Positions 40,904-44,374 of a stretch of DNA of 64,000 nucleotides are shown one piece after another. Each line of letters opens with the position of its first letter. The stretch's first letter is position 1. The notes under the pieces are model-generated. The model was not told the DNA's origin and did not search any database. It worked only from the letters and a program-made list of their open reading frames with translations. Both the position numbers and the translations under genes were made by a program. Location: positions 62,001 to 126,000 of the forward strand of contig NZ_PVBR01000012.1 in NCBI RefSeq assembly GCF_002980495.1, written 5' to 3'. This stretch comes from Phyllobacterium phragmitis. GTDB taxonomy: Bacteria; Pseudomonadota; Alphaproteobacteria; Rhizobiales; Rhizobiaceae.

Positions 40904-40944
40904 CAGCAGGCCTATTGTTCCTACCCGGAACAATAGGCCTGCTG
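40904..40944. repeat. Perfect 18-bp inverted repeat upstream of pcm
   Basis: Arms 40904-40921 and 40927-40944 are exact inverted copies (CAGCAGGCCTATTGTTCC) with a 5-bp loop. The structure would be a very stable hairpin in the pcm leader. One arm belongs to the LigD remnant (reading NQQAYCSG), so the second may be a copy made by a template switch. It lacks a T-run. Confidence 0.8.
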
Positions 40945-41330
40945 GTTGCGCAGATAATCGGCAAGGATCTTCCCACGCCGCTTCGATTTGGTGATGGTCG
41001 AGGCATAGAGGTCGGGGCTGTCGGCGGCCATGGCATCGGCAATCGATTTCGTGAACGCCTTCACGGCGACCCAATCGGCTTTCGGCTGAAGCGGTGTGAC
41101 GACATGCAGCCCCTTCCCGCCCGAGGTCTTCACGAAGGCCGAGAGCCCCGCTTAGGTGAGCCGTTCACGCACCTCGCGCGCGGCGTCGGCCACCGCTTTC
41201 CCGGCAACGCCCTCACCCGGATCGAGATCCATTATAATCATGTCGGGGCGCTCCCAGTCGGTGGCCGCCCGGCAACGCGGTTCGATAGCCTTTGTTCCTG
41301 CCGTCAGGCGAGGTGGGCAGGTGGAATCGG
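40930..41330 (-). pseudogene. LigD polymerase-domain remnant
   Basis: Two minus-strand segments match the primase-polymerase domain of the NHEJ ligase LigD: RPDMIIMDLDPGEGVAGKAV then AREVRERLT, and after an in-frame TAA, AGLSAFVKTSGGKGLHVV then PKADWVAVKAF. They run in the same frame with one nonsense codon (at about 41153-41155), and both ends are missing. This is a dead fragment of a ligD gene. Confidence 0.8.
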
Positions 41331-41542: not shown

Positions 41543-42301
41543 ATGGCACAAGACACCTTCCCCAAATGTGTGCGATATGTTTTCGAGGAAGAAGGCGGGT
41601 ATGCTGATAATCCCGCCGACCCAGGCGGTCCCACCAATATGGGCATCACTCTGCGGACCCTCTCGGCGTGGAAGGGGCATACGGTCTCTCCGGACGAAGT
41701 CAAAGCTCTCAGTAAAGCAGAGGCAACGAAGATCTATAAAGTCCAATACTGGGATAAAGTAGACGGAGACGCATTGCCTGCGGGTCTGGATTACGCAGTA
41801 TTCGATTTTGCAGTCAATTCTGGTCCGGCGCGTGCAGCGATAACGTTGCAGGAGATTGTCGGCGCTGCGCCGGACGGCGTGATCGGCCTGCAGACGATCC
41901 GCGCCGTGGAAAGCCATAATGTTGCGGATGTCATCAATACGCTCTGCGACAAACGCCAAGCGTGGCTTCAAACATTGATGGGAGCAAGCACATTCGGAAC
42001 AGGCTGGAATTCACGTGTCGACCGTGTCCGGTCACGCGCTCTGGCACTTGTAAAAAGCGGAGGTCGTCATGCTGTTGCCGCTTCGGATGTGGCGACGGCA
42101 AAGGCCAACCAGAGCGACACCTCGGTTTCCTCGATCCTTACCAAGCCGGAAGCGTTGGGATCTCTTGGAAGCGTTGCTACAGGCCTGGCCGCGATAGCGA
42201 CTGGACGCGGCCCGGTGCAGTACGCACTTGCAGCCGTCATGATCGTTTTCGCGCTCGTTGGAGTCTGGTATTTCATTCGCCGTATCCGCAACGAACCCTA
42301 G
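41543..42301 (+). CDS. GH108 N-acetylmuramidase with C-terminal membrane anchor (SagA/TtsA-like)
   Basis: The 252-residue protein has the GH108 catalytic block FEEEGGYADNPADPGGPTNM (residues 14-33; Glu of EGGY is catalytic), then a PG_binding_3 domain (APDGVIGLQTIRAV, about 110). A ~45-residue linker leads to one membrane helix (about 226-245) and a basic end (RRIRNEP). There is no signal peptide. Relatives include phage endolysins, Brucella SagA and Salmonella TtsA, which remodel peptidoglycan for secretion. It precedes a LuxR gene and a leaderless lectin. AAGGA stands before the ATG. Confidence 0.85.
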   Translation: MAQDTFPKCVRYVFEEEGGYADNPADPGGPTNMGITLRTLSAWKGHTVSPDEVKALSKAEATKIYKVQYWDKVDGDALPAGLDYAVFDFAVNSGPARAAITLQEIVGAAPDGVIGLQTIRAVESHNVADVINTLCDKRQAWLQTLMGASTFGTGWNSRVDRVRSRALALVKSGGRHAVAASDVATAKANQSDTSVSSILTKPEALGSLGSVATGLAAIATGRGPVQYALAAVMIVFALVGVWYFIRRIRNEP

Positions 42302-42492
42302 TTCCATGTTTCTCAATGACCGCGACGCCTGGCAAGAGCGAGACCCGCAGATACGAGAACGGCCGGTACGGCTGCGCTATGAGATGGAGGATTTGCATGC
42401 ACTTCCGCCCGTTGTGCGGCTGTATTGTTGAACACGGCATCACAGCTGAAGAAGGGAGTGTCCATAGATGTTCATGGGCCCACTTGTAGTGT

Positions 42493-43236
42493 TTATAGGT
42501 CCACTGGAATGAACTGGCACTGCATTGCGCGCGCAACAGCCTGCGTCTTGTTGGCGGCGCCCAGCTTATTCATTGCGCTGACAGTATGCGCGGTGACGGT
42601 GCGCTCCGTGATATTCAGGATTTCGGCGACATCATTAGCTGTCTTGCCGACAGCGGCCCATCGCAGGACTTCCCTCTCGCGCATAGTTAGCGGTGACCGG
42701 ACGGGCGGGCGGGCGGCACCCACAACTTGCCGGACCTTCTCGGCAGTGTATATGGCAATGAATTGAAGAGCCGGTTTGGCACGCACCGGCAGCTCAGAGT
42801 GCCGCCCACTCATTGAAATGCAGGCCGTGCGATGCGCAAACCCCGGAACCGGCACGCAAAAGCCTCGCAACATGCCGAAATCCCGAGCCAACGCCATCAG
42901 TTCGCCAGCACGAGACTCCCGCTCTCGATCGTACGGCGCCTCCTTCCAGTCGAATGCCCGAAATGTGTTTCGACACATACGGGCCACAGGATCACAGCGT
43001 GCATATTTCCGTGTTGCGTAAAGCTCCGGCCACCCCTCAGGCAATTCATCAAAACAAATGACGTCTTCTATGTTCTCATACGACAATGGAAGATCAGAAA
43101 TGACCAGATTTGTAAATCCAAACGGCGATATCGTCTGCATAAATATTCGTATAATATCAATGCTATTCGTTGCTTTATCTATACTTTCAATAAAGTTTAA
43201 TAAAATTGTCACATAATAGAAATTCTCTCTGTTCAT
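42493..43236 (-). CDS. LuxR family quorum-sensing regulator with autoinducer-binding domain
   Basis: The 247-residue regulator has an acyl-homoserine-lactone-binding domain (about residues 15-165, with YATRKYARCDPVARM and FDWKEAPYDR carrying the conserved Tyr, Asp and Trp) and a LuxR HTH (LTMREREVLRWAAVGKTAND then ITERTVTAHTVSAMNKLGA, about 182-230). GAGGTG precedes the ATG. No luxI synthase gene is in the window, so it may be a solo receptor. It lies between the muramidase (convergent) and the lectin (divergent). Confidence 0.9.
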   Translation of the reverse strand: MNRENFYYVTILLNFIESIDKATNSIDIIRIFMQTISPFGFTNLVISDLPLSYENIEDVICFDELPEGWPELYATRKYARCDPVARMCRNTFRAFDWKEAPYDRERESRAGELMALARDFGMLRGFCVPVPGFAHRTACISMSGRHSELPVRAKPALQFIAIYTAEKVRQVVGAARPPVRSPLTMREREVLRWAAVGKTANDVAEILNITERTVTAHTVSAMNKLGAANKTQAVARAMQCQFIPVDL

Positions 43237-43618
43237 ATCGCCACCTCGATTAAATCTTTCTTATATATTAAAATCACTATTCTGAGAGAAATCCAACCCC
43301 ACTTGCTGTCGCGGTGTAGATTAGGTACATCAGCATCAAGAATTGACCGTATTGATAGTTTTCAAGGCGTCTGGCGCCCCCAAATTCAAAGCAAGCTGGG
43401 CGAGCGGATCGATGCCCGTGTGATTGCATCCAGCGGCTCGATGCAACTGCATGCCTGAGGCCGTGCGACGTGCCGTTCAGCACCGCTACGGTCCACGCGG
43501 CCTGTAGGAAACTACAATACCATTCTCTTGCTGTTTGCTTAGCCTTGGCACCTGGTGCGGTTCTCGGAGCATCGAGAGAAACACACCAGGTCACGTTATC
43601 TTTCGAAAGGAACAACCA
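43237..43618. other. Divergent region between LuxR and lectin genes
   Basis: These 382 bases contain no gene. The first part (to about 43340) is AT-rich and should hold the LuxR promoter. A dyad ACCTGGTG (43550-43557) ... CACCAGGT (43584-43591) flanks an internal TTCTCG...CGAGAGAA stem directly before the lectin. It could be an operator or an RNA hairpin in the lectin leader. No clear lux box was found. Confidence 0.45.
43550..43591. promoter_or_regulatory. Inverted repeat in the lectin leader
   Basis: The 8-bp arms ACCTGGTG and CACCAGGT are exact, and the inside partly pairs (TTCTCG with CGAGA). It ends 27 bp before the lectin ATG. It may bind the adjacent LuxR protein or act as an RNA structure. 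Neither is shown by sequence alone. Confidence 0.4.
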
Positions 43619-44374
43619 ATGGCTGAGCAAGAAAAATCTGTGCTGTGGACCGGCACGCTCGAGGCGACGAACGAACAGGGTGTGAAAACAGGTCTTACCC
43701 TTAACACGCGAGACCCAAAAATCACGATCACCGTCACAGGGTCTGCAAAGTATGCCCAGAGCAAACCGGCGTTCGGTCCAGACGGGGATACCAATTATCA
43801 AAACCCAAACACGCTGCTGCCCAGTGCAAATGTCGGTATGGCTTTGATGCGGATTGGCGGCGGACAGGCTGGCGGCGGCCCCTACAGACCCGTCGGCACG
43901 GGAATTTCCGATTGGACAATACGGGAGGACGGCGAACTCACGTTCTTTTATAATGATCAGCCAGGTGATTATGGCGACAATTCCGGCTCGTTCAACATCG
44001 CGGTGCTAAGACAACTCACATGGAACGGCAAGCTCCCGGCAAATGCGGCAGACGGCGTGAAAACGGGCATCGTCGTCAACACGAGAACGGACAAGATTTC
44101 GATCACCGTCACGGGCAAAGCAAGTTATGGGCCGGGGGGCCAGGAGTTCGGTCCCGATGGTAATCCGGGTGATGTTAATAACCCCGGGGCACTTCTGCCC
44201 AGTGCGAACTGCGCTTCATGTCTGATCAAGATCGGCAATGGCCCTTACAGGTTCGTCGGCACGGGGAAATCCGATTGGCCCGTACCAGAAGACGGCGAAA
44301 TCGCGTTCTTCTACAATGATGGGATTTTTGATGATAATTCCGGCTCCTTTGCGATAACGCTCACGGTGAACTGA
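43619..44374 (+). CDS. Tandem PA-IL (LecA)-like lectin
   Basis: The 251-residue protein consists of two repeats (about 9-130 and 134-251) that each match the Pseudomonas PA-I galactophilic lectin: W.G start, NTR..ITITVTG, then GPDG, TG..W and the Ca/sugar loop. Repeat 1 has YNDQPGDYGDNSGSF (residues 111-125), close to LecA YND..GTYGNNSGSF. Repeat 2 has the shorter YNDGIFDDNSGSF (232-244) and a Cys pair (198, 201). There is no signal peptide, as in LecA. AAAGGAAC precedes the ATG, and a terminator follows. LecA is quorum-controlled; a LuxR gene is divergent here. Confidence 0.85.
   Translation: MAEQEKSVLWTGTLEATNEQGVKTGLTLNTRDPKITITVTGSAKYAQSKPAFGPDGDTNYQNPNTLLPSANVGMALMRIGGGQAGGGPYRPVGTGISDWTIREDGELTFFYNDQPGDYGDNSGSFNIAVLRQLTWNGKLPANAADGVKTGIVVNTRTDKISITVTGKASYGPGGQEFGPDGNPGDVNNPGALLPSANCASCLIKIGNGPYRFVGTGKSDWPVPEDGEIAFFYNDGIFDDNSGSFAITLTVN

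Follow-up and report, generated by a model that had tools for sequence, protein, structure and literature searches.

A lectin gene in a 64,000-nt stretch of Phyllobacterium phragmitis contig NZ_PVBR01000012.1 (hereafter the window; its genome is labelled G000) very probably represents, judging from sequence, a small LuxR-type regulon that is devoted to lectins, in a version with one lectin gene only. The gene lies next to luxR and is preceded by a lux-box-like dyad (hereafter the box). A GH108 muramidase gene flanks luxR on the other side. The first-pass annotation of this DNA read the three genes as a quorum-timed, type-10-like system for lectin release. Its quorum-control part is well supported as a prediction, whereas the muramidase release module is unsupported. 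The trio itself was verified in the window. The GH108 and lectin genes lie on the plus strand and luxR is antiparallel to both, an orientation absent from that annotation; because the middle gene opposes its two neighbours, the trio is not an operon. The coordinates are given in Table 1.

The middle gene was correctly named as a LuxR-type receptor; its product carries the Autoind_bind (PF03472, E 9.7e-28) and GerE (PF00196, E 4.8e-18) domains. The lectin had been described as leaderless with two LecA-like repeats, and both points were confirmed: PA-IL matched in two stretches (E 5.4e-33; 114.1 bits versus a curated cut-off of 22.5), and hydropathy revealed neither a leader nor a membrane helix. 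PA-IL is rare. It was found in two of 297 family genomes (the window's own and G206), in one of 397 order genomes (its own), and in three of 385 class genomes (its own and two distant ones); in the two distant genomes, the 3.4 kb retrieved showed no box and no copy of this LuxR. When a contig collection was scanned with the window lectin, two more loci were confirmed, in Mesorhizobium sp. RMAD-H1 (G678 and G1067 in different genome samples) and in Chelativorans salis (G679 and G1118); the paired labels were equated from identical contig coordinates. The same LuxR adjoins lectin genes in all four genomes with intact islands. Its orthologues are 81% (G206), 70% (RMAD-H1), and 57% (C. salis) identical to the window protein, each beside PA-IL lectins, and pairwise identity among the four is 51-81%. 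The islands differ in PA-IL gene number: the window has one, G206 has three, RMAD-H1 has four, and C. salis has two. In C. salis, one PA-IL gene adjoins luxR, the other lies about 6 kb further on, and luxI (PF00765, E 2.6e-25) is divergent from luxR. The same species has a 105-aa H-type-like protein, encoded at L009:5380-5697 by a gene that is preceded by a box, and, on a separate contig, a 354-aa LecB-type protein with a hemopexin match and a PA-IIL domain (PF07472, 24.3 bits, cut-off 21).

When the upstream regions were set side by side, ACCTGTARGAAACTACAATA or a near form of it stood before every lectin gene. A near-invariant 20-bp dyad is located 113-122 bp before the ATG of 10/10 intact PA-IL genes in the four genomes. 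In total, 14 box sites were collected from the islands and two further loci: those of the 10 PA-IL genes, those of the luxI, H-type-like, and LecB-type genes of C. salis, and that of a broken lectin copy in G1083. All 14 sites agree at positions 3-7 and 13-20. Among the 10 PA-IL sites, mean identity is 92% in the box and 39-41% in the flanks. Compared with the PA-IL sites, the luxI box shows 80% identity and the LecB-type box 76%, but their flanks only 26-38%, so neither promoter is a copy of the lectin promoter.

The box is also rare. The exact 21-mer CCTGTARNNNWCTACAATACC occurred at 12 sites in 5 of 394 Rhizobiaceae genomes, and its reversed control at none. These sites precede eight PA-IL genes, one H-type-like gene, one luxI, one hemopexin/LecB-type gene, and one broken lectin gene. 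Within the window, the 20-mer matched once at up to three mismatches, and 0 of 100 shuffles matched. The 17-mer core was searched at up to two mismatches. The window's own genome contained one exact site, at the window lectin, and a single site with two mismatches. Island-gene sites numbered three in G206, four in RMAD-H1, and three in C. salis (reversed control, 0), with one extra 1- or 2-mismatch site elsewhere in each. The extra near-box of C. salis (L034:6558, contig C3) has an apparent luxR 3' tail and no lectin hidden Markov model (HMM) match behind it, and is probably another relic cassette. The box was also met in 10 stretches of viral contigs, none with a LuxR or lectin HMM match, a number near chance by rough estimate.

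A hexamer starting 30 bp past the dyad centre begins with T at 14/14 sites and reads TAGCCT at the window lectin and TACAAT at the LecB-type gene. In class II LuxR promoters the box is centred near -42. The dyad-hexamer spacing fits this layout, and the hexamer is a candidate -10 element. LuxR carrying an acyl-homoserine lactone (AHL) would then bind the dyad about 42 bp before the presumed transcription start of each lectin gene and recruit RNA polymerase (class II activation). The circuit would be closed in C. salis, because the synthase gene luxI belongs to the cluster and carries a box. The window LuxR would respond to an AHL made from either of the two other luxI genes of its genome or by neighbouring cells. 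At high cell density the leaderless lectin would be made, exit the cell, and cross-link the sugars of cells or matrix. LecA is said to leave the cell without a leader.

Several points weigh against this regulon. Only four genomes had intact islands, and three of these belong to a single genus. The resemblance to the Vibrio fischeri lux box, taken as the comparison standard from an excerpt of the source (PMC4444344), amounts to 12-14 of 20 positions and proves nothing, because simple shuffles of the intergenic region in the window reach 13 in 46 of 500 cases. The right half of the box departs from the CT-N12-AG rule, and part of the box conservation could reflect recent duplication. In the window's own genome, the reversed control of the 17-mer core likewise found one site at up to two mismatches; loose box matches are therefore at chance level. 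The H-type-like assignment is weak, with H_lectin at E 0.028, below the cut-off, and tail-fibre type families at E 0.0014-0.0073. No luxI adjoins the window LuxR, and the two luxI genes of the window's genome share only 28-30% identity with that of C. salis.

Nine residues are listed as invariant in quorum-sensing LuxR proteins in the available part of one survey (W57, Y61, D70, P71, W85, G113, E178, L182, and G188 in TraR numbering; PMC4338825). All nine were placeable in the window LuxR and its three relatives (4/4), by LasR alignment and spacing rather than direct TraR alignment, with two glycine candidates for G113, both conserved. Because both domains and the key residues are present, the window LuxR probably binds an AHL. 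Its own genome has two luxI genes elsewhere, and no box was found in the 13 kb fetched around them. A luxI match was found in 6/6 further genomes examined, three with intact lectin islands and three without. One luxI of the window's genome, on contig C6 (L015:845-7171), forms a luxR/luxI pair beside two EPSP-synthase-like genes and one asparagine-synthetase-like gene, as judged by eye; this neighbourhood is perhaps a quorum-controlled small-molecule pathway. The second, on contig C10 (L014:5829-6458), lies near flagellar-export-like genes, also by eye, and no LuxR was recognised near it among the listed open reading frames (ORFs) of at least 180 aa.

Alternatively, LuxR may repress from the box, or its ligand may be something other than an AHL, for example a plant or host signal, as with some LuxR solos. 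The lack of an adjacent luxI in three of the four genomes would agree with this, as would the orphan CepR2 of Burkholderia cenocepacia, which, in the part of the report at hand, represses bclA, a lectin gene, and is able to act when AHL is absent (PMC2753556). However, six AHL-domain residues are kept in 4/4 orthologues, the C. salis island includes a box-bearing luxI, and the box position fits activation. We consider this alternative unlikely.

Another possibility is that the 20-mer serves as a core promoter element, or is bound by a different regulator, and that luxR merely travels with the lectins. The TACAAT within the box is similar to a -10 hexamer, chance can produce the degree of likeness seen to the V. 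fischeri lux box, and binding of LuxR to the box is a prediction. A housekeeping promoter, however, would be expected before many genes, whereas the 21-mer was met in five genomes only and, in these, before no genes other than lectin-type genes and luxI. Moreover, the -10-like hexamer stands at a fixed spacing outside the box, and the box precedes a C. salis luxI that is divergent from luxR, as autoinduction predicts. Either role for the 20-mer is quite improbable.

The release module was weighed on the company that GH108 keeps. The annotation had given the GH108 protein a C-terminal membrane helix and no signal peptide, and these features were borne out: PF05838 matched at E 2e-29 (102.4 bits versus a curated cut-off of 21.2), a single helix spans residues 227-245 (19-residue hydropathy 2.33), and the N-terminus is not hydrophobic. 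Muramidase activity is predicted from the domain match. The closest solved relative is 7dnp (E 2.4e-62), named 'secretion activator protein'. A full-length phage relative (36.9% over 98%, Dinoroseobacter phage) is annotated as acetylmuramidase or endolysin, and the C-terminus reached 44.8 bits against a Bartonella gene-transfer-agent endolysin model, far under its cut-off of 315. A GH108 match was present in 35 of 199 family genomes, the window's own included. Of the four genomes that have intact islands, and of 29 GH108 loci from elsewhere, only the window's genome showed the three genes directly adjacent. Co-occurrence of the trio within 5 kb, which the annotation had offered as a check, did not recur: GH108 lies within 5 kb of the lectins in one and within 10 kb in two of the four genomes with intact islands. 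In G206, it is on a different contig from the lectins, the contig ends implying a distance of at least about 180 kb, and in C. salis no match was obtained at E 1e-5. In RMAD-H1, GH108 is 6.4 kb away from the island, oriented as in the window, and four genes of the SDR, amylase, glycosyltransferase, and debranching-enzyme families separate it from luxR. None of the 29 other GH108 loci had a lectin, this LuxR, or the box nearby (about 1.5 kb each side), and the box search of the window found no such dyad before GH108.

In relatives, this endolysin-like muramidase gene is recurrently found beside the end-joining genes Ku and LigD. Both genes adjoin GH108 in G206 (Pfam; L072:9301-14358) and likewise in G142 and G050 (L074 and L075; tblastx), and lie 3-4 kb from it in RMAD-H1 (L073; tblastx). 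The profile search of family genomes gave no PA-IL match in G142 or G050. Since GH108 keeps the Ku/LigD company also where a PA-IL match is absent, it is the older neighbour, and the lectin island lies beside it. A LigD remnant in the window would be a relic of this neighbourhood, and the proximity of GH108 to the island in RMAD-H1, which leans toward a partnership with the muramidase, is read tentatively as a shared insertion place. No holin was recognised among the nearby ORFs scanned, which were of at least 80 aa; further overlapping ORFs and sequence elsewhere in the genome lay outside this search. Eight further ORFs at 44.2-45.6 kb had no Pfam match, and seven of them gave one weak PHROG match of unknown function. 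After the co-occurrence, synteny, and box searches, the muramidase was rejected as a partner of the lectin. A module in which an anchored muramidase opens the wall for the lectin is very improbable, even with a leaderless lectin, GH108 near the lectins in two of the three genus members with intact islands, a solved relative named for secretion, and the requirement for a TtsA-like hydrolase and a holin in Salmonella ChiA secretion, as an extract of the source describes it (PMC10109510).

The lectin-dedicated regulon also leaves traces of its history. In C. salis, the luxR stop codon falls inside the box, and the lectin gene follows directly. Likeness to the luxR 3' end, in the right frame, was detected upstream of the window lectin, the H-type-like gene, and the G1083 relic (0/1000 dinucleotide shuffles each). 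Across the 14 sites, shuffle counts, uncorrected for the number of sites, were 0/1000 at four (the true C. salis luxR end, the window, L009:5176, and L077), 19-31/1000 at four (L008:8928, L008:9879, L009:9894, and L009:1623), and 69-689/1000 at the other six. The ancestral order was likely luxR, box, and lectin, and cassettes of luxR tail, box, and lectin were likely duplicated. In the genus of the window, luxR would have become divergent from the lectins, as we infer. More tentatively, and with more doubt than confidence, we suggest that a self-contained, lectin-only quorum-sensing regulon moves through Rhizobiaceae as portable cassettes (luxR 3' end, operator, and lectin gene), gathering LecA-, LecB-, and H-type folds under one box, and that the resulting density-timed lectin mixture binds matrix, plant, or animal glycans.

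The lectin start is likely ATG 43619, behind a good ribosome site (GAAAGGAACAACCA), and not TTG 43535. The protein matched the LecA chain 1l7l at E 1.4e-14. We take D100, N107, N108, H50, and Q53 to be the calcium/galactose-site residues of LecA. In a hand-matched alignment, the places of D100 and N108 are occupied by invariant Asp113 and Asn121 in 10/10 lectins (first domain), and that of N107 by Asp or Asn. The places of H50 and Q53 read Tyr and Pro in the window lectin, so its sugar specificity may differ from that of LecA. By analogy with BclACB and LecA, the lectin may have a role in matrix or adhesion. In some island lectins the second PA-IL domain is replaced by another C-terminal domain (L008:8053-8802, L012:13627-14358, L009:3389-4090, and L012:12405-13346), and the islands thus seem to shuffle binding domains; the replacement gave a weak DUF4751 match in three lectins, and trefoil-like repeats were seen by eye in one. 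A search at E 0.01 did not recover the glycosyltransferase remnant suspected 3' of the lectin gene. Carriage of the lectin by a phage or plasmid was rejected, given no match in the viral contig collection and a lone, weak plasmid match (Streptomyces, 32.4% over 41% of the query).

Table 1. Features of the lectin locus and its surroundings (window coordinates).
Feature	Position	Strand	Remark
Lux-box-like dyad GCCTGTAGGAAACTACAATA, proposed LuxR operator of the lectin gene	43500..43519	+	Conserved across islands
TAGCCT, proposed -10 element	43540..43545	+	Starts 30 bp after the dyad centre; box positions 41-46
Lectin with two PA-IL (LecA-type) domains, no leader	43619..44374	+	251 aa
LuxR-type regulator, divergent from the lectin gene	42493..43236	-	247 aa; Autoind_bind and GerE
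Apparent luxR 3'-end fossil, ...AVRRAVQHRYGPRGL then stop, running into the box	43436..43507	+	Score 38; reached by 0/1000 dinucleotide shuffles
Predicted GH108 muramidase, C-terminal membrane helix	41543..42301	+	252 aa; neighbour, judged outside the regulon
LigD remnant	40936..41286	-	78.6% identical to residues 662-778 of G206 LigD; in-frame stop

The locus yields a LuxR regulon predicted from sequence, whose operator is specific enough for its sites to be catalogued in each genome. One box across unrelated lectin families makes lectins directly testable as a density-timed group trait. A false lead is also removed, as a neighbouring muramidase need not be the exit route of a leaderless LecA-type lectin. 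The LuxR-lectin-box arrangement was not found among the papers listed by searches of the open-licence literature, and a search for PA-IL and Mesorhizobium likewise gave nothing. The word lectin is absent from the main text of two LuxR-solo surveys (PMC10134790 and PMC4338825).

Among known systems, type 10 secretion (TtsA and Salmonella ChiA) resembles the window in having a GH108-type muramidase near a leaderless protein. It differs in that the window has no holin recognised nearby, no conserved cargo linkage, and no promoter element shared by muramidase and cargo. In B. cenocepacia, bclACB encodes LecB-type lectins, and cepR2 is close to the bcl genes. The likeness here is that several lectins are under LuxR-type regulators, CepR and CepR2. 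The accessible portion of one report states that bclACB expression needs CepR and that loss of BclACB leads to biofilms with hollow microcolonies (PMC3426421). Unlike the islands described here, the bcl lectins form one operon, and their regulators have many other targets; the parts of two reports at hand mention no box before each lectin gene (PMC3426421 and PMC2753556).

There is a likeness in lectin type with P. aeruginosa, where a LuxR-type receptor is likewise combined with PA-IL and PA-IIL lectins; here LecA-type lectins and the LecB-type lectin of C. salis share one box. The P. aeruginosa receptor, RhlR, has many targets, and its gene is not linked to those of the lectins. It activates lecA and lecB, according to a partial text of the source (PMC7253366). 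In contrast to RhlR, the present LuxR adjoins the lectins, and its presumed box precedes lectins and luxI. Unlike those of P. aeruginosa, the lectins here are tandem two-domain or fused proteins, present in several copies that each have a box in front. In Pseudomonas and Burkholderia, lectins of the LecA and LecB types are thus already known to be under quorum control; the Rhizobiaceae arrangement likely extends such control to this family.

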